NCBI GenBank assembly: GCA_947371755.1
Contig: CANBQT010000001.1
Coordinates: forward strand, 124,001 to 188,000
From: Chitinophagaceae bacterium
GTDB taxonomy: Bacteria > Bacteroidota > Bacteroidia > Chitinophagales > Chitinophagaceae
Direction: 5' to 3'
DNA: 64,000 bases
This document shows, piece by piece, positions 50,728-61,214 of the stretch (the stretch's first letter is position 1; the number at the start of each line of letters is the position of its first letter). A program made the translations under genes and the position numbers. The notes under the pieces are model-generated. The model saw nothing but the letters and a program-made list of their open reading frames with translations. It ran no database searches and was not told the origin of the DNA.

Positions 50728-51813
50728 CTACTTAAAGATCGATTTTAGCATTTCATCTAACTCAGCGCCTCTTAAATTCTTTCCAACAATTCTGCCTGTG
50801 GGATCGATGAGCATATTGGCTGGAATTGATTGGATCTTATAGATCTGAGCGACTGAATTGTTCCAGTATTTCAAATCGCTTAATTGAGTCCAGGCAAGGC
50901 CATCCGCTTTAATGGCTTCTACCCATCTCGATTTTTCCTGGTCTAATGAAATGCCTAATACTGTAAAGTTCTTTGCCTTATATCTATTATATGCCTTAAC
51001 AACATTGGGGTTTTCTTGTCTGCATGGACCACACCAACTTGCCCAGAAATCGAGTAATACATATTTTCCTTTGAAAGAAGATAAGGATACCGGTTTCCCA
51101 TTTACATCTTTTTGAGTAAAGTCAATAGCCATAGAACCAACTGCACCTAATTTAGCTTCATTGATGGCTTTATCTAAAGCTGTCGCATATGGCCCCTTTA
51201 AAGCATTTCCTGAAAATTTAGAAAAGTAAGGCTCTAATTGTGGAGCACCCCCTTCCATTAAAGGACTAATTGCATACAAAACAAAAGGAGAAACAGAAGA
51301 ACTTGATTTTTTATCCATGAACGTTGAAGCTGAATTAATAACCTGTTGTTTCAATTCAGTAAATTCTTTCATCATAGATGCACGAAGATTAGGATCTTTC
51401 TCCTGATTGATTTTACCCGCTAATCCATTCAATTTTTCTTTATAAGGATCCAATACGGTTTTAAACTCGAGATAATCAGCTTCGGTTTCTGAACCTGTAA
51501 ATTGAAGCCCCTTTAAATTGCCGGCATCACCAGTAATAGTTAAAGATTCATTACTCATAAACAGATCGGCAATCTCAGTATATCCTGAAAATGATAAAAT
51601 ACATAACTCAGCATTTTCTAATTTTCCACTCAATAAGAATTCTCCATTTATTGATATAGAACTGGCTAAGACTTTCCCGTCACTACCCGACTTTAAAGAA
51701 AGTTTTGTACTGTCTTTAAGCCCACTAATCCTGGCTTTTATTTCAAATCCATTTGATTTTTGTGCAAATGATAATACAGGTAACAACAATAAAGAAAATA
51801 AAAACTTTTGCAT
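50728..51813 (-). CDS. TlpA-like thioredoxin-fold protein with N-terminal DUF4369-type domain
   Basis: FKGKYVLLDFWASWCGPCRQENPNV; N-terminal FEIKARISGLKDSTKLSL. Confidence 0.87.
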   Translation of the reverse strand: MQKFLFSLLLLPVLSFAQKSNGFEIKARISGLKDSTKLSLKSGSDGKVLASSISINGEFLLSGKLENAELCILSFSGYTEIADLFMSNESLTITGDAGNLKGLQFTGSETEADYLEFKTVLDPYKEKLNGLAGKINQEKDPNLRASMMKEFTELKQQVINSASTFMDKKSSSSVSPFVLYAISPLMEGGAPQLEPYFSKFSGNALKGPYATALDKAINEAKLGAVGSMAIDFTQKDVNGKPVSLSSFKGKYVLLDFWASWCGPCRQENPNVVKAYNRYKAKNFTVLGISLDQEKSRWVEAIKADGLAWTQLSDLKYWNNSVAQIYKIQSIPANMLIDPTGRIVGKNLRGAELDEMLKSIFK

Positions 51814-51815
51814 AA

Positions 51816-52418
51816 TTATTTAGAATGACGACTTTTTAAAATTTCAATAACATGATTCAATTTATACCCTTTTGCATTTAGCAACAACAAATAATGAAAC
51901 ATCAGATCGGCTGCTTCATTCAAAAATAGTTCTTCGTTATCATCTTTTGCTTCAATGACCAATTCAACAGCCTCCTCTCCCACTTTCTGTGCTACTTTAT
52001 TAATCCCTTTAGAAAACAACCTCGCAACATAAGATTCATCAACAGAGGCTTTTTTTCTCAAATCGATGATATCTTCTAAATAATTTAAAAAATTACTGCT
52101 ATGGTTTTTCTCCATCCAACAGGTGTCTGCACCGGTATGACACACTGGACCTTTAGGATGTACTTTAATCAATAAAGTATCATTGTCACAATCAACAGCC
52201 ATCGTTTTTAACTCTAAAAAGTTACCACTCTCCTCACCTTTGGTCCAAAGTCGCTGTTTACTTCTACTAAAAAAAGTAACGCGTCCCAGTTCTTCCGTTT
52301 TTTGTAATGCTGCTTCATTCATAAATCCAAGCATTAGCACTTTCTCCGTATCATAATCCTGCACAATTGCTGGCACTAAACCGTCGGTATATTTTGTAAA
52401 ATCAACTTTCATACACAA
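51816..52418 (-). CDS. hisIE: bifunctional phosphoribosyl-AMP cyclohydrolase/phosphoribosyl-ATP pyrophosphatase
   Basis: VLMLGFMNEAALQKT, FFSRSKQRLWTKGEESGN, CHTGADTCW; C-terminal AQKVGEEAVELVIEAK. Confidence 0.95.
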   Translation of the reverse strand: MCMKVDFTKYTDGLVPAIVQDYDTEKVLMLGFMNEAALQKTEELGRVTFFSRSKQRLWTKGEESGNFLELKTMAVDCDNDTLLIKVHPKGPVCHTGADTCWMEKNHSSNFLNYLEDIIDLRKKASVDESYVARLFSKGINKVAQKVGEEAVELVIEAKDDNEELFLNEAADLMFHYLLLLNAKGYKLNHVIEILKSRHSK

Positions 52419-52421
52419 TCA

Positions 52422-53180
52422 TTATATTCTAACAATAATTCCCTTTTCGTTTAAATAATGTTTCAGTTCAGGTATCCCTATTTCTTTAAAATGAAAGATA
52501 CTTGCAGCTAATGCGGCATCGGCTTTAGCTATTTCAAAAACATCTACAAAATGTTCCATCGTTCCTCCACCACCAGATGCAATCACTGGCACTGGTAATT
52601 GTTCGGCCAATGTTGCAGTAATATCCAATGCAAAACCTTGCTTCGTACCATCATGATTCATGGAGGTAAGCAAAATCTCACCAGCACCCAAATCTACAGC
52701 CTGTTTTGCCCAATCCACACATTTTGTGTCCGTTTTAACTCTTCCGCCATTCAAATATACATACCACTCACCATCTGACTCCTGTTTGGTATCAATTGCT
52801 AATACAACACATTGACTCCCAAACTCCTTTGCTAATTGATGGATGAGTTGTGCATTTTTAAAAGCAGATGTGTTCACAGAAATCTTATCGGCACCATTCT
52901 GCAATAGTATACTCACGTCATCTACACTACTGATGCCTCCCCCCACCGTAAAAGGGATATTGATATGGTGCGATATTCTATTGACTAATTCACTTAATGT
53001 TTTTCTTTTTTCGACAGTAGCAGTAATATCTAAAAACACTAATTCATCAGCTCCTTGGGCTGCATATAGCGCTCCCAGTTCTACAGGATCTCCCGCATCG
53101 CGGATATTTTCGAAATTTACCCCCTTTACTGTTCTTCCATCACGAATGTCTAAACAAGGGATGATTCTTTTTGTAAGCAT
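52422..53180 (-). CDS. hisF: imidazole glycerol phosphate synthase cyclase subunit
   Basis: [48 protein letters not shown]. Confidence 0.96.
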
Positions 53181-53199
53181 CGATTTGTTCCTTTAAAAA

Positions 53200-53916
53200 C
53201 TATAACAAGTACTTTAATTCGTTCAGTTGGATCCTACCTTCATAAATTGCTTTACCAACAATTGCGCCAGAACAACCAATTTCCTTTAAAGCATATAGAT
53301 CATCCATAGAGCTAACTCCACCACTTGCTATAAACCAAAGTGAGGGAAATTTTTCGATAATCTTTTTATATAAATCATTGGATGGCCCTTCTAGTTTGCC
53401 ATCTTTACTTACGTCCGTACAGAAAACTTGTTGTATTCCATGATTTACATAATCATTCAAAAAATCATAGATATCAATATCAGTAGTTTCTAACCAACCT
53501 GCCACAGCAATTTTCTCTGATCTAACATCCGCGCCTAATAAAAACTTGTCTGCCCCATATTCTTCTAACCAACTAACAAAAACCTCAGGTTGTTTCACTG
53601 CTAAACTTCCAATGGTTGCATATGCGGCACCTGATTCGAACACAATTTTCAAATCCTTATCTTGTTTGATACCTCCCCCAAAATCTATGCTTAAATTTGT
53701 ACTAGCTGCGATTTGCTGTAATACTACCCAATTTTTTACTGCACCTTCTTTTGCGCCATCCAGATCCACCAAATGCAATCTTTTTAATCCAGCCCCTTCA
53801 AAGGCTTTCGCCACTTCTAAGGGGTTTTCGTTATAAATGGTTTTTTGTTCATAATCACCCTGAGTGAGACGAACACATTTACCATCAATGATATCTATAG
53901 CAGGAATTATTTCCAT
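53200..53916 (-). CDS. hisA: ProFAR isomerase
   Basis: MEIIPAIDIIDGKCVRLTQGDYEQKTIYNENPLEVAKAFE, IDFGGGIK, IASGGVSSMDDL. Confidence 0.95.
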   Translation of the reverse strand: MEIIPAIDIIDGKCVRLTQGDYEQKTIYNENPLEVAKAFEGAGLKRLHLVDLDGAKEGAVKNWVVLQQIAASTNLSIDFGGGIKQDKDLKIVFESGAAYATIGSLAVKQPEVFVSWLEEYGADKFLLGADVRSEKIAVAGWLETTDIDIYDFLNDYVNHGIQQVFCTDVSKDGKLEGPSNDLYKKIIEKFPSLWFIASGGVSSMDDLYALKEIGCSGAIVGKAIYEGRIQLNELKYLL

Positions 53917-53927
53917 AAATTTTCTTT

Positions 53928-54527
53928 CTAGAGTTTAATAAAATTTTTAAGAATCTGCTCACCCACTGCAGCACTTTTCTCGGGATGAAATTGCACTCCA
54001 TAAAAATTATTTTTATGCAATGCCGCACTATAAGGTAACACATAATCAGTTGTAGCGATGGTATGCTCACCTTTGGCAGCATAATAGCCATGTACAAAAT
54101 AACAGTAACTATTTTCTTTCAGGTCAAAAAACAGAGGTGATTTGAGTTCACCAATCGTATTCCAACCAATTTGAGGTACTTTTAAATGTTGTTGAATTTG
54201 TGCGTCAGGATTAAACTTCTTGACATTCTCATCAAATATTCCTAAACATGGGGTATCGTTCTCTTCACTATTGGCACACATCAGTTGCATACCTAAACAA
54301 ATTCCCAATACCGGCTGAGTTAAACTTCTGATTAAAACATCCAATCCTCTCTCTTTCAAATAATTCATAGCGGTACTTGCTTCTCCCACTCCCGGAAATA
54401 TCACTTTATCTGCAGATCTGATCAAAGCTTCATCGTCTGTTACAATGGCCTCCACTCCTATTCGTTCCAATGCATATAATACTGATTGAATATTACCCGC
54501 ATTATATTTAATGATAACTAATTTCAT
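53928..54527 (-). CDS. hisH: imidazole glycerol phosphate synthase glutamine amidotransferase subunit
   Basis: IKYNAGNIQSV, VLGICLGMQLM, FYGVQFHPEKS. Confidence 0.95.
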   Translation of the reverse strand: MKLVIIKYNAGNIQSVLYALERIGVEAIVTDDEALIRSADKVIFPGVGEASTAMNYLKERGLDVLIRSLTQPVLGICLGMQLMCANSEENDTPCLGIFDENVKKFNPDAQIQQHLKVPQIGWNTIGELKSPLFFDLKENSYCYFVHGYYAAKGEHTIATTDYVLPYSAALHKNNFYGVQFHPEKSAAVGEQILKNFIKL

Positions 54528-54545: not shown

Positions 54546-55313
54546 CTAGAGTATGTCTCCAAGAAATTGCTTTACAGATAATGCAAGATCCTTTGATTGC
54601 TCCAATGCTTTAATAAAAGCTGTTCCAATAATGGCACCATTAGAATACTTTGAGGCAGATTCAAATGTTTCTCTATCCTTTATTCCAAATCCAACCAAAA
54701 CAGGATTCGATAAGTTCATTTCTTGTAATCTAAGCAGGTATTTTTCAACCGCATTAAAATCTTTGTCGCTACCTGTTGTAGCCGATGAACTTACAGCATA
54801 AAGAAAACCTGTACTCAATGTGTCTAATTTTCTTAGACGTTCATCAGAGGTTTCTGGGGTAACTAGAAATATAAAATCTAAACCATACTTTTTAATGATA
54901 GCACCAAATTCAGTTTCGTATTCGTGTTCTGGCAGATCAGGAAGTATTAAACCATCCACTCCAACCGCAGCAGCTTCTCTACAAAAATTTTCAAATCCAT
55001 ATTGTAATACAGGATTCATATACCCCATTAAAATTACTGGAACAGATACTGTTTTACGTAAGTCATGCAATTGTTCAAATAGAACTTTAATGGTCATACC
55101 ATTTGCCAAAGCAATATTTCCACTGGCTTGAATCACAGGTCCGTCTGCAAGAGGATCGCTATAGGGCATCCCCAGTTCAATAATATTTGCTCCATTGGCT
55201 TCCAAAGCCTGCATCACAGAAATGGTACTATTCAATTCCGGGAAACCTGCAGTACAGTAAACATTTAAAACCCTTTTATTTTTACGGGCAAATAATTCCT
55301 TTAAACGACTCAT
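54546..55313 (-). CDS. trpA: tryptophan synthase alpha subunit
   Basis: IIELGMPYSDPLADGPVIQASGNIAL, GFGIKDRETF. Confidence 0.96.
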   Translation of the reverse strand: MSRLKELFARKNKRVLNVYCTAGFPELNSTISVMQALEANGANIIELGMPYSDPLADGPVIQASGNIALANGMTIKVLFEQLHDLRKTVSVPVILMGYMNPVLQYGFENFCREAAAVGVDGLILPDLPEHEYETEFGAIIKKYGLDFIFLVTPETSDERLRKLDTLSTGFLYAVSSSATTGSDKDFNAVEKYLLRLQEMNLSNPVLVGFGIKDRETFESASKYSNGAIIGTAFIKALEQSKDLALSVKQFLGDIL

Positions 55314-55339
55314 GTAATTATAATTAATCTTTCAAACTA

Positions 55340-56542
55340 TTAATCAACCAATTTTAATTCTTTGATATAAGTAGCCAGATCTTTATCACCCCTTCCACTC
55401 AAACACAAGACCACTCTATCAGTTGGTTTCAAATTCATGCGGCCTAACACTGCAAAAGCATGTGCTGTTTCCAATGCTGGGATAATCCCTTCGGTTTTAC
55501 TTACGTGTAATGCTGCCTGCAAAGCCTCTTCATCGGTGGCACTCAAAAACACCCCTCTTCCTGAAGTAAATAAATTGGCGTGTAACGGTCCAACACCCGG
55601 ATAATCTAAGCCAGCAGAAATGCTATGCGGTTCAACTACTTGCCCATCTTCTGTTTGCATCAACAAACTCTTACTACCATGTAAAATACCCGGCTTGCCT
55701 AACTGGGTAGTTGCAGCACTCATACCACTATACACACCATGACCTGCCGCTTCCACAGCTACTAATTGAACAGACAATTCATCTAAAAAATGATAAAAAG
55801 CCCCAGCTGCATTACTACCTCCACCTACGCAGGCAACTACATGTGTTGGTAATTCAAACCCGGTTTTATCTTTTAACTGCCAACGGATTTCTTTGCTGAT
55901 CACACTTTGAAAACGGGCAACCATATCCGGGTAGGGATGAGGACCAACCACGCTTCCGATAATATAATGTGTATCATTGGGATTATTGATCCAATCGCGT
56001 ATCGCTTCATTGGTAGCATCTTTCAAGGTTTTACTACCACTGATCGCTGGGATTACTTTTGCACCTAACATCCTCATTCTGGCAACATTGGGCGCCTGAC
56101 GTTCAATGTCTTTCTCCCCCATATAAACAATGCACTCCATTCCTTTCAATGCACATACTGTAGCAGTTGCAACACCATGCTGACCAGCACCTGTTTCGGC
56201 AATGATTCTTTTTTTACCAAGCCTGATGGCCAAAAGAATCTGACCAATAGTATTATTGATTTTATGTGCACCAGTATGACAAAGATCTTCGCGTTTCAAA
56301 TAAATGGAAGCACCAAATTCTTTACTTAAACGTTCAGCAAAGAATAAAGGAGTGGGCCTGCCTACATAGTCTTTCAATAATTGCTGAAATTCTTCCTGAA
56401 AAGAATTTTCATGCATGATCTCTAAGTACTTTGCCTTTAATTCTGCTACATTTCGGTGCAACATTTCAGGAATGTAAGCACCGCCAAAATCTCCATAATA
56501 ACCTTGTTGATCCGGGCTTTGGTAGGTTTCTGTTTTCATCAT
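55340..56542 (-). CDS. trpB: tryptophan synthase beta subunit
   Basis: [48 protein letters not shown]. Confidence 0.97.
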
Positions 56543-56561
56543 TTTATTTCAAATTTGTAAA

Positions 56562-57200
56562 TCAGGCTTTCAAAGTATTTACAAAGGCCTTGATTGTGTC
56601 CATATTCTTCAAACCTGGGGCTACTTCAAATTTGCTATTGATATCTATGGCAAATAAATCTTTTGATACAGACTCTTTAGCAAATTCTTTTAAAAGTTCA
56701 TTGTCATCCGGTTGAATACCCCCACTTAAAAAAAAGGGTTTTCTAACATTTTCTCCTTTCAGAATATTCCAATTGAATTTTTTTCCCGTACCCCCGTATC
56801 CTGCACCTTCAGTGTCGAACAAAAACATATCACATACATCCTGATAATCCTTTGCTCTCCACAAAATATTTTCACCTTCTCTCATACGAAACGCTTTTAC
56901 AACTGTAACATAGTTGGAAATTTTTTCGCAATACCTGGGTGATTCATCCCCGTGTAATTGCACCAGGTACAACCCGCAGGCATCCACCATCTGCAGCACT
57001 TCATCAGCTGGTGTATTTACAAACACACCCACTTTATTAATGTGCTGCCCTTTTAGTTTTTTCAATTGTTCTTTACTCATATGAGAAAAAACATAACGGG
57101 GCGATTTGGGGTAAAAAATGAACCCAGCGAACTCAACACCCATTTCGTCGAGTTGCATTACTTGTTCAGGCCTAGTCATACCGCAAACCTTAATACGCAT
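56562..57200 (-). CDS. trpF: phosphoribosylanthranilate isomerase
   Basis: IKVCGMTRPEQV, FAGFIFYPKSPRYV, LVQLHGDE, FLSGGIQPDN-like motif. Confidence 0.95.
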   Translation of the reverse strand: MRIKVCGMTRPEQVMQLDEMGVEFAGFIFYPKSPRYVFSHMSKEQLKKLKGQHINKVGVFVNTPADEVLQMVDACGLYLVQLHGDESPRYCEKISNYVTVVKAFRMREGENILWRAKDYQDVCDMFLFDTEGAGYGGTGKKFNWNILKGENVRKPFFLSGGIQPDDNELLKEFAKESVSKDLFAIDINSKFEVAPGLKNMDTIKAFVNTLKA

Positions 57201-57201
57201 A

Positions 57202-57984
57202 TTATTTTGCTTTTAGTTGATTTACAAAATCAGCAAAAGCAATCGAAGGATCGGCTTCTTTCATAAAATTCTCACCGATCAAAAAACCTTTAAAACCGGC
57301 ATTTCGCAAAGTTACAATTGTATTTACATCACTGATGCCACTTTCTGCAATTGCCAGCTTATTAGATGGTATTTTGTTAATAAGGTTGAGAGAAGTTTGA
57401 ATACTCACTTCAAAATTCTTCAAATTCCGGTTATTCACCCCTACCAGATCTACTTCCTCACAGATATGTTCCAATTCAGAATCATCATGTATCTCTAACA
57501 ATACTTCCATGCCAAGGCTTTTTGCCAAAATAGCTAATGACTGAACTTCCACTTTGCTTAAACATGCGGCAATTAACAAGATCAAATCAGCACCCATGGC
57601 TTTGGCTTCATACACTTGATAAGGATCTATCATGAAGTCCTTCCGTAAGATTGGAATGGCGTGCACTCTTGCTGCCATCAGATCAGCTGGTTCACCACCA
57701 AAAAAATCCTGATCTGTTAATACCGAAACCGCACTTGCGTGTTGGGCATATGCACCAGTTACATGCACTACATCCGCAGTACCATTGATCACACCCTTAG
57801 AAGGAGACTTTCTTTTAAATTCAGCGATGATTCCAGTTCGATTAGGATCATTTAGAAAGTCTGTTACTGAATAAGTACCTCGAGTAAAAAATGGTTCAGC
57901 ACTAAGTGCGTCAATAGATTTTATTCGCTTGCGCGCTATCACTTCCAATTTCTTCTGAGCAACTATTTTATCTAAAATATTCAT
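57202..57984 (-). CDS. trpC: indole-3-glycerol phosphate synthase
   Basis: IIAEFKRKSPSKGVIN, ILRKDFMIDPYQVYEAKAMGADLILLI, VGVNNRNLKNFEV. Confidence 0.97.
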   Translation of the reverse strand: MNILDKIVAQKKLEVIARKRIKSIDALSAEPFFTRGTYSVTDFLNDPNRTGIIAEFKRKSPSKGVINGTADVVHVTGAYAQHASAVSVLTDQDFFGGEPADLMAARVHAIPILRKDFMIDPYQVYEAKAMGADLILLIAACLSKVEVQSLAILAKSLGMEVLLEIHDDSELEHICEEVDLVGVNNRNLKNFEVSIQTSLNLINKIPSNKLAIAESGISDVNTIVTLRNAGFKGFLIGENFMKEADPSIAFADFVNQLKAK

Positions 57985-58977
57985 CTATTGTAATGCGATT
58001 AAATTTTGTAATGAATGATAAGCTTTTCCGCTATCTAAACTATCTACTGCAGCGTTATAAGCTTCCTCATAGGTTGCAAATTTTCCAGTACAATGCAATG
58101 CCATGGCTGAATTAGCCAATACCACTGCATTTTGTGCCCAGGTACCTTCTCCCTTAATGATCTTTGTAAATATTTTGCAGGCCTCTTCTACGGTATTCCC
58201 TCCATGTATATCTTCTGCACTTACCATGCGCTTGCCCAACTGCTCAGGTGTAAATATTTTTTCGCCTTTGTTGGTAATAACTTTTGTATCGTTAGTTAAT
58301 GAGATTTCGTCATACCCGTCCAAACTATGAATAATAGTAAAAGCTTTTCCAGTTTGTTGTAACAAATAATTATAGATCCGGGCCATTTCTAAATTGTATA
58401 CTCCTACCAGTTGAAAAGCTGGCGAAGCAGGATTTACCATTGGTCCAAGCATGTTGAAAAAGTTACGGAGACCCAGGTTTTTGCGAATGGGCCCAACCGC
58501 TTTTAAAGCAGGATGGAATAATGGTGCATGCAAGAAACAAATATTTGCACCATCTAACTCTTTTAATAATTGCTCATTATTGTTCTTGTGTTTATAGCCC
58601 AACTGCTCCATAACATTCGAAGCACCACTGATAGAACTTGCTCCATAGTTTCCGTGTTTGGCTACTTTCTGCCCTGCTCCCGCTACAATGAAACAAGATA
58701 GTGTAGAGATATTAAAAGTATTTTTTCCATCGCCTCCTGTACCTACAATATCTAAAACTTCCTGTCCTCTTACATCAACTTTTATACACAATTCCAATAA
58801 GGCATCGCAAAATCCTTGCAATTCTTCAATGGTAATACTGCGCATTAGAAAAACTGTGATAAAGGCCGCTACTTCTGTTTCGTTATATTGGCTATTTGAA
58901 ATATTAATCAAAACTTCTCTCGCTTTTTCGCGACTGAGTGTTTTGTGTTCGAATAAATATTGTAATAGTTTTTTCAT
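57985..58977 (-). CDS. trpD: anthranilate phosphoribosyltransferase
   Basis: DIVGTGGDGKNTFNISTLSCFIVAGAGQKVAKHGNYGASS, NMLGPMVNPASPAFQLVGVYN. Confidence 0.97.
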   Translation of the reverse strand: MKKLLQYLFEHKTLSREKAREVLINISNSQYNETEVAAFITVFLMRSITIEELQGFCDALLELCIKVDVRGQEVLDIVGTGGDGKNTFNISTLSCFIVAGAGQKVAKHGNYGASSISGASNVMEQLGYKHKNNNEQLLKELDGANICFLHAPLFHPALKAVGPIRKNLGLRNFFNMLGPMVNPASPAFQLVGVYNLEMARIYNYLLQQTGKAFTIIHSLDGYDEISLTNDTKVITNKGEKIFTPEQLGKRMVSAEDIHGGNTVEEACKIFTKIIKGEGTWAQNAVVLANSAMALHCTGKFATYEEAYNAAVDSLDSGKAYHSLQNLIALQ

Positions 58978-58981
58978 AAGT

Positions 58982-59569
58982 TTATTTCTTTAACCAGTTC
59001 TTTAAAATGGTTTCTCCTGTGGGTGTTAATACACTTTCAGGATGAAACTGTACTCCCTGTACATCATATTTTTTATGTTCCAATGCCATAATAAAACCAT
59101 TTGCTTCAGTAGCAGTTATGGACAATTCTGTTGGAAAATTCTGATCACTCACCACCCAACTATGATACCTACCTACAATAAATTCAGAAGGCATTCCCTC
59201 AAACAAATAATTGACCTGTTCATTAGCATTTGATTGATCTACTATTTGAATAGGTGTGGCTATACCATGAAAAGGAGATGACAAATTCGTTAACGTTCCG
59301 CCAAATGCTTCACCAATAGCCTGATGCCCTAAACATACACCGAGTATGGATTTGCTTGGTGCATACTCTTTAATTAAGGGCAACAATAATCCAGCTTCTG
59401 AAGGTATACCCGGACCAGGTGACAAAATAATTTTATCATAATCTTTTACCCTTTCTAATGGAAGCTCATCATTACGAAACACGTCTACTTTTTGCTTCGT
59501 AATCTTCTCCACCATGTGTACGAGATTATAAGTAAACGAATCGTAATTATCAAACACTAAAATCTTCAT
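58982..59569 (-). CDS. trpG: anthranilate synthase glutamine amidotransferase component
   Basis: FDNYDSFTYNLVHMVE, ILSPGPGIPSEAG, ILGVCLGHQAIGEAFGG, GVQFHPESVLT. Confidence 0.95.
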   Translation of the reverse strand: MKILVFDNYDSFTYNLVHMVEKITKQKVDVFRNDELPLERVKDYDKIILSPGPGIPSEAGLLLPLIKEYAPSKSILGVCLGHQAIGEAFGGTLTNLSSPFHGIATPIQIVDQSNANEQVNYLFEGMPSEFIVGRYHSWVVSDQNFPTELSITATEANGFIMALEHKKYDVQGVQFHPESVLTPTGETILKNWLKK

Positions 59570-59595: not shown

Positions 59596-61011
59596 TTAAA
59601 TTTCTTCTGCAATGCTGATGGCTTTTTTCAAGGCATTCAGTTTATTATTCACTTCCTGTAATTCGTTTTCCGGAACACTTGCTGCCACCACTCCTGCGCC
59701 TGCTTGATAGGTAAGCGTATTATTCCTACTCATAAAAGTTCTGATCATAATTGCATGATTGCAGCTTCCGTCAAATCCCATGAATCCAATCCCTCCGCCA
59801 TAGTATCCTCTTGGTGTTGGCTCATATTGGTCGATTAATTCCATGGCCTTGAATTTTGGTGCACCACTTAAGGTACCGGCCGGAAAAGTTTTAGCCAATA
59901 ATTCAAAGGGATTTTGATGAGCCCTCACTTTACCTGTTACTTCACTTACTAAGTGTATAACGTGACTATAATAATGAACCTGCCGATATTGGCTTACCGT
60001 TACTTCATCACAAGAACGACTCAGATCATTTCTTGCCAGGTCAACCAGCATTACATGTTCTGCATTTTCCTTGGGGTCGTTTAATAGCTTTTCAGCCATC
60101 GCTTTATCCGTATCATCATCACCGCTTCTTTTAAAAGTTCCTGCAATTGGATGCACCACAGCTAACCCATTCTTAATGATCAATTGTGCTTCAGGTGAAG
60201 AACCCATGAGTTTGTAATCGCCATAATCGAAGAAAAACAAATAGGGTGAAGGATTCACACTTCTCAATGCCCGATACACATTAAATTCGTCACCTATAAA
60301 ACCCTGTTCAAAACGCCTGCTTAATACAATCTGAAAAACATCACCACGCATACAACTTTGAATACCTTTTCGCACGATTGCTCGATAGTCTTCATCTGCC
60401 ATATTACTCAACTCCTCACCTTTCTTTCGGAAAGGATACACAGGAACATCCTTGCTTTTGATAATTGATTCAAGCATTGGAAGTTCGCTTTCTACTCCTG
60501 CTATTTTATTTTCACAGATATACAATTCATCCTTAAAATGATTGAATGCTATTACATATTGATAGAGGCGATAACGCATGAGAGGAATATTCGGAATGCG
60601 CTGCTTTTCAGCTGCAAAACGAATGGTATCGAAAAACTGTACCGAATCAAAACTGCTATATCCATATAGACCTTGTGCAAAGGCTGCTTCTTTTTGAGAA
60701 GATGGTTTGATATCAAAATGTTGCATGAAATTCCATAATTCCTGAGGCGCATCAGCAGGTTTTTTAAGGGGTGCGCGTTCAGGTTTCTCATTTGGAAATT
60801 TGAACTCCATGCTATTTACAGAACTTACTTCAATTCCTGCAATGGCATTAATTCCAATAAAAGAATAACTGTTTTCAGCAACATGGTGATCTGTACTCTC
60901 CAATAAAACGGTGTCTCGGAATCTATCGCGTAAACGCAAATAAATTCCAACTGGTGTAAATACATCAGCCAACATCCTTTTACAACTAGTTTCAACTACA
61001 ATTTTCTTCAT
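59596..61011 (-). CDS. trpE: anthranilate synthase component I
   Basis: LLES-X10-S Trp-binding motif (LLESTDHHVAENSYS), FQIVLSRRF, SPEAQLIIKNGLAVVHPIAGTFKRS, AGTLSGAPKFKAMELID, AGAGVVAASVPENE. Start reset to ATG at 61011; the TTG-initiated extension to 61053 starts inside the terminator hairpin. Confidence 0.95.
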   Translation of the reverse strand: MKKIVVETSCKRMLADVFTPVGIYLRLRDRFRDTVLLESTDHHVAENSYSFIGINAIAGIEVSSVNSMEFKFPNEKPERAPLKKPADAPQELWNFMQHFDIKPSSQKEAAFAQGLYGYSSFDSVQFFDTIRFAAEKQRIPNIPLMRYRLYQYVIAFNHFKDELYICENKIAGVESELPMLESIIKSKDVPVYPFRKKGEELSNMADEDYRAIVRKGIQSCMRGDVFQIVLSRRFEQGFIGDEFNVYRALRSVNPSPYLFFFDYGDYKLMGSSPEAQLIIKNGLAVVHPIAGTFKRSGDDDTDKAMAEKLLNDPKENAEHVMLVDLARNDLSRSCDEVTVSQYRQVHYYSHVIHLVSEVTGKVRAHQNPFELLAKTFPAGTLSGAPKFKAMELIDQYEPTPRGYYGGGIGFMGFDGSCNHAIMIRTFMSRNNTLTYQAGAGVVAASVPENELQEVNNKLNALKKAISIAEEI

Positions 61012-61035
61012 GATTTCTTTTTCTATGCTTATCAA

Positions 61036-61069
61036 AACAAAAAGCCCCGGCAAAATTGTCGGGGCTTTG
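61036..61069 (-). terminator. trp operon attenuator terminator
   Basis: Minus strand AAAGCCCCG-A-CAA-TT-TTG-C-CGGGGCTTTTTGTTTT: GC-rich hairpin with U tract about 25 nt upstream of trpE ATG. Confidence 0.88.
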
Positions 61070-61110
61070 AATATATTTCAAAATAGTATTGGCTATGCCG
61101 CTACAATCCC
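61052..61110 (-). promoter_or_regulatory. candidate antiterminator (competes with attenuator terminator)
   Basis: Minus-strand GGGAUUGUAGCGGC (61097-61110, spanning the leader stop codon) can pair with GCCCCGACAAUUUU (61052-61065, 5' arm of the terminator): 12 of 14 positions, including 3 G-U. Confidence 0.6.
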
Positions 61111-61160
61111 CTTTTAGAGTTTGTATGCCACCACCAATATTTATTTGCTATTCTGTTCAT
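61101..61160 (-). CDS. trpL: tryptophan leader peptide MNRIANKYWWWHTNSKRGL
   Basis: ATG AAC AGA ATA GCA AAT AAA TAT TGG TGG TGG CAT ACA AAC TCT AAA AGG GGA TTG TAG; three tandem Trp codons just upstream of the terminator preceding trpE. Below the size cutoff of the supplied ORF track. Confidence 0.88.
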   Translation of the reverse strand: MNRIANKYWWWHTNSKRGL

Positions 61161-61167
61161 TGCATTG

Positions 61168-61199
61168 CAAATATGAGAGAGATTTTAAATTTTTCCAAA
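61168..61199 (-). promoter_or_regulatory. Bacteroidetes-type promoter for trp leader/operon
   Basis: Minus strand TTTG-N20-CATATTTG (consensus TTTG-N19..21-TAnnTTTG, one mismatch), ending 7 nt before trpL ATG. Confidence 0.6.
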
Positions 61200-61214
61200 T
61201 ATTTTCTCCAACTC

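Follow-up and report, generated by a model that had tools for sequence, protein, structure and literature searches.

A predicted tryptophan attenuator that may also sense histidine ahead of the trp-his operons of Chitinophagaceae

The trp-his operon and its putative promoter

The window, meaning the whole stretch of 64,000 nucleotides of Chitinophagaceae DNA that was analysed, carries on its minus strand trpE (59596..61011; best NCBIfam model TIGR00564, with a score below the TIGR00564 cut-off), followed by trpG, trpD, trpC, trpF, trpB and trpA in that order (54546..59569) and, after a gap of 18 nt, by hisH, hisA, hisF and hisIE (51816..54527), of which hisH was identified by NCBIfam and the rest by reading and conserved order. 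By position and shared strand, these genes are assigned to one operon, trpEGDCFBA-hisHAFIE. The trp-his gene order recurs in nine of ten further Chitinophagaceae genomes, the first set compared, and operons with hisHAFIE right behind trpA are common across the family. A gene for a TlpA-like (thioredoxin-like) protein (50728-51813) follows hisIE; where the operon is without his genes, such a gene is often located directly after trpA.

The putative promoter (61168..61199, minus strand) consists of a -33 box TTTG (61199-61196) and a -7 box CATATTTG (61175-61168); the published consensus is TTTG/TAnnTTTG, with transcription starting 4-5 nt past the -7 box (PMC6847099). The boxes are phased in the family: of 76 leaders, 34 have a TTTG that ends 7 nt ahead of the start codon ATG and 33 have one that ends 35 nt ahead of it, where 0.6 per position would be expected. 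The box spacing of PMC6847099 suggests a transcription start near 61163 and a 5′ untranslated region of 2-3 nt, which would make the mRNA nearly leaderless; 5′ untranslated regions this short are rare in the phylum (3.7-5.5%; PMC7366714, PMC9723704).

Leader ORF, terminator and alternative pairings

Ahead of trpE on the minus strand lies an ORF of 19 codons, MNRIANKYWWWHTNSKRGL (61101..61160; stop codon TAG at 61103-61101), which is conserved in relatives. It contains three consecutive Trp codons, UGG UGG UGG (61128..61136), read from the sequence as the regulatory codons; WWW is present in 89 of 98 leaders. Immediately 3′ of the Trp run is a His codon, CAU (61125..61127), a candidate second regulatory codon; the codon that comes next to the final Trp on its 3′ side is one for His in 89 of 98 leaders. 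Between the ORF and trpE is a strong intrinsic terminator (61033..61068, minus strand) made up of the hairpin AAAGCCCCGACAATTTTGCCGGGGCTTT (61068-61041, -15.6 kcal/mol) and a U tract (61040-61033). Translation and folding bear out the positions given in an earlier note on this DNA, which had described a 19-codon leader ORF, a GC-rich hairpin with a U tract and a trpE start codon ATG at 61011, all on the minus strand.

Folding and RNAalifold place the Trp codons and the RNA past the stop codon in a 1:2 hairpin (61087..61139, minus strand), the inner stem of which masks a G-run at the end of the ORF; the pairing of UAUUGG (61139-61134) with CCAAUA (61092-61087), which had been proposed from the letters alone, sits in the minimum-energy fold of 61011-61200. 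The antiterminator strand GGGGAUUGU (61103..61111, minus strand) is the ORF end itself, and the 5′ arm of the terminator doubles as its partner. The core pairing, GGGG (61111-61108) with CCCC (61064-61061), is only 4 bp in the window, among the shortest of 44 divergent leaders; it is favoured together with nested hairpins (P 0.8-0.9), and this type of pairing is conserved. The longer duplex that the earlier note had put forward as the antiterminator, pairing 12 of 14 positions of GGGAUUGU and ACAAUUUU, does exist (-9.2 kcal/mol), though as a minor alternative (P 0.07-0.15) to the preferred GGGG:CCCC.

The fold of the leader region is better than that of most of 200 shuffled sequences (z -2.6; three shuffles equally good). 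Among 1783 short ATG ORFs in the window, the leader ORF is the sole one to encode a WWW peptide (shuffled windows average 0.01), and it is the sole short ORF of the window in which a regulatory-type codon run is followed by a terminator; TGGTGGTGGCATNC is found once in the entire genome.

Conservation of the leader in the family

Conservation of the leader ORF and its Trp codons in relatives had been named as a check on the attenuator, and a leader with Trp codons is indeed present upstream of trpE in 83 of 84 Chitinophagaceae genomes, starting with ATG in 82 and with GTG in one (L222/G127). The sample, drawn across the family from genomes with trpE, was assembled independently of leader presence; in its one leaderless genome, trpE is only 53% identical. 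A WWW leader precedes all 22 same-genus trpE loci that have enough upstream DNA, and the named loci of the family with a leader include those of Niastella, Terrimonas, Flavihumibacter, Niabella and Chitinophaga. When R1, a covariance model built on the leader, was run class-wide, it proved unspecific (matches in 108 of 242 genomes, most of them terminator-like at 37-45 bits), and trpE-anchored upstream regions were therefore used for the survey instead. On these comparisons of sequence, the leader is not a chance ORF.

The family has kept both pairings of the leader RNA, the 1:2 hairpin and that of the ORF end with the terminator 5′ arm; the earlier note had suggested looking for covarying stems. 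RNAalifold of the 44 divergent leaders independently yields two hairpins, the terminator and 1:2, the latter with its inner stem at the ORF end. Over these 44 sequences, 93.8% of cells in the two helices are paired (91.6% in the 1:2 helix alone) versus 39-53% in slid controls, double-sided changes occupy 58 cells versus 19.8 in shuffles, and the partner of the invariant UGG codons switches mostly between compatible bases.

The duplex of the ORF end with the terminator 5′ arm averages -12.4 kcal/mol when each sequence is paired with its own arm and -10.7 kcal/mol when sequences are re-paired among species; none of 5000 permutations was as good, nor any of 5000 in a thinned set of 47. Permutation controls gave z-scores of -1.3 to -2.0 for the ORF start and -3 to -5 for the reversed arm, so part of the permutation signal is due to base composition; a run-length test free of register gave 2/5000. 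Such register-free tests were used in place of a fixed-column test, which was weak, since the position of the G-run differs by one base from lineage to lineage. Compensatory types of ORF end and 5′ arm, AGGG:CCCU and GAGG:CCUC, also occur. In the AGGG lineages, the 5′ arm is CCCU and the 3′ arm is still GGGG, indicating that the 5′ arm follows the ORF and not its partner in the terminator. The antiterminator begins 12-16 nt past the last Trp codon in 83 of 99 cases.

Predicted attenuation mechanism

The effect of a stalled ribosome was computed by masking its footprint, with its 3′ edge set 9-13 nt past the codon in the A site, and folding the masked RNA at equilibrium, transcription speed being outside the model. 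In the window, the antiterminator is predicted to be free (P 0.8-0.9) when the A site is at any codon from Tyr8 to His12, but no longer so from Asn14 onward; at the edges, Thr13 frees it only with the smallest footprint and Lys7 only with the largest. Across 94 leaders, the antiterminator forms with the ribosome at the last Trp codon (97%) and at the next codon (94-97%), then declines over the following two codons. For a ribosome at the stop codon, release of the antiterminator is blocked by the construction of the scan. Two points speak against the model: in some relatives the antiterminator forms even without a ribosome, and the core pairing in the window is short.

The locus thus presents a tandem-Trp ORF before the first trp gene, an intrinsic terminator between this ORF and trpE, and, in computation only, an antiterminator that excludes the terminator and is freed when a ribosome occupies the Trp codons. 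If charged tRNA-Trp were scarce, the ribosome would stall on WWW, opening the 1:2 hairpin and leaving the G-run at the ORF end free to capture the terminator 5′ arm by pairing, and transcription would continue into trpE. If Trp were plentiful, the ribosome would reach the stop codon and cover the G-run, and the terminator would form; if there were no translation, the 1:2 hairpin would mask the G-run and the terminator would form likewise. The proposal of the earlier note that stalling at UGG frees the antiterminator and that a ribosome at the stop codon covers it gains support from the conservation of the leader, the maintained pairing and the stall scan. Ribosome-mediated trp attenuation is very probable on this anatomy, conservation, pairing and modelled stalling, and a ribosome-mediated attenuator of trpEGDCFBA-hisHAFIE is, with good confidence, the best explanation of the whole. 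We infer the promoter position, translation, stalling, termination and the amino-acid response.

The histidine codon and linkage to his genes

No codon beyond the His codon is well within the stall window, and a shortage of His should therefore also switch the operon on: the ribosome would stall at CAU. Neither this conserved codon nor the his genes at the end of the operon had figured in the earlier note. The hypothesis that this codon goes with his genes in the operon was set down before the operon data were analysed. In the family sample, His adjoins the Trp run in all 51 operons with linked his genes (WWWH, WWH, GWH, WWWQH or HWWWQ), and among the 21 operons without linked his genes, 10 have no His beside the run and 11 keep it (Fisher test, 6.6e-7, which ignores relatedness). 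The genome with the GTG start was counted as unlinked because trpA there is directly followed by a tlpA-like gene (L280). In a set of 30 loci that overlaps the family sample, His is beside the Trp run in all 21 loci with his genes.

Alternatively, the attenuator might respond to Trp only, His being held in place by the RNA stem of the 1:2 helix that contains CAU, and the association with his genes reflecting shared ancestry. Of 44 sequences, 42 have the C column of CAU paired and 40 the U column, as this explanation predicts, and the 11 unlinked operons that retain His are compatible with it. Against it, linked operons that lack His directly after the last Trp have it elsewhere by the run, either one position further (WWWQH in G118) or just before the run (HWWWQ in G059 and G157), and the linked set of 51 includes a one-Trp leader, MKLNQTNNGWHIIPFQG (L247/G093, NGWH), that retains His. 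Mapped on a tree of trpE, the presence of His switches about seven times, and the rows without His are all unlinked operons (rough p 6e-4, on a tree that is weakly resolved, which favours the alternative); in a tree-based pair test of His and his linkage, resolved independent pairs were too few for significance and none was in the wrong direction. A response to Trp only is accordingly regarded as possible and rather doubtful. An additional response to His, making the leader a dual Trp-His sensor, appears to be the likelier reading of these sequences. We lean slightly toward the full form of this proposal, a family-wide dual-input attenuator in which a WWWH leader on a nearly leaderless mRNA would read Trp and His for trpEGDCFBA-hisHAFIE, its His codon being kept, moved or lost as the his genes stay or leave.

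Two other explanations were weighed. The leader peptide could act in trans, besides or instead of attenuation, like the reported peTrpL of Sinorhizobium (PMC7298713), and N..WWWHTNS is conserved as a peptide; its C-terminal residues, however, vary with the RNA pairing (RGL, GVL, RVL; WWWQSIF with UGUGUC and GGCACA), which points to the RNA as the object of selection and makes a trans-acting peptide improbable. Also improbably, the hairpin could be merely the terminator of a hisB transcript, hisB ending just upstream of the leader on the same strand in the window, with trp having its own constitutive start; but leader and hairpin accompany trpE where the upstream gene does not resemble hisB (L015, L019-L021), the leader is preceded at a constant distance by boxes like those of a promoter, and changes at the ORF end go with changes in the terminator arm.

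Relation to known attenuators

The proposed ribosome-mediated attenuator has precedent in its phylum. Trp leaders had been thought little studied in Bacteroidetes, yet the Bacteroid-trp RNA (Rfam RF01692) was described there in 2010 (PMC2864571), a Bacteroid-trp element has been noted ahead of the Flavobacterium psychrophilum trp operon (PMC6414381), and a wider use of leader-peptide attenuation by flavobacteria is suspected (PMC9723704). A literature search, with most subscription journals outside its scope, found no paper on trp leaders of Chitinophagaceae or on a leader for Trp and His.

The leader of these freshwater Chitinophagaceae is a clade-wide, previously uncatalogued relative of RF01692, the closest family known and probably a homologue. 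The two share a phylum, a short ORF with NN-x-WWW directly before the trp genes, and a long stem containing the Trp codons followed by a terminator. The RF01692 model aligns to 61180-61058 with 30.3 bits, below its cut-off of 49, and at that cut-off it has no match in 18 relatives or in any of 198 family genomes. Conversely, model R1 matches at the leader in 12 of 13 RF01692 loci, with 25-44 bits, a range in which R1 also matches ordinary terminators. The layouts differ: in RF01692 members (27 loci), the terminator loop and 3′ arm seem to be the partners of the ORF end GUCGUGA (6/5000 permutations as good) and the 5′ arm gives no signal (1792/5000), whereas the Chitinophagaceae leader uses the 5′ arm. 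In RF01692 leaders, WWW is mostly followed by N, K or S, with no His directly after the run, in contrast to His in Chitinophagaceae, and none of ten RF01692-type operons tested has his genes downstream of trp. One phylum holds two layouts of the same leader.

The anatomy resembles that of the E. coli trp attenuator in its tandem Trp codons, short leader, 1:2, 2:3 and 3:4 pairings and intrinsic terminator before trpE. It differs from E. coli trpL in having three Trp codons plus His and in that the antiterminator strand is inside the ORF end; in trpL this strand comes after the stop codon. The model of the E. coli leader (RF00513, Trp_leader) reaches a non-significant 16.4 bits in the window (cut-off 41), and in a search of the window for T-box, TRAP and other Rfam families at gathering cut-off, nothing except a tRNA was found. 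Enterobacteria also have multivalent leaders, each holding codons for two or three amino acids, such as thrL (Thr, Ile) and ilvL (Ile, Val, Leu), and we know of no leader that pairs Trp with His.

Chitinophagaceae thereby gain an amino-acid attenuator that is clear and open to testing and that RNA libraries have so far overlooked, and the tie between codon content of the leader peptide and gene content of the operon over dozens of genera amounts to a natural experiment on attenuator sensing. Natural leaders with four, three, two or one Trp codons occur in the family. Lineages with a single Trp codon (L121, L123, L126, L127, L129, L138, L247; mostly NGWH) retain the leader, the terminator and the G-run at the ORF end. 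Three divergent trpE genes, L258-L260 (in G102, G041 and G143), have a different leader, YWWLSRWQ.VNS.
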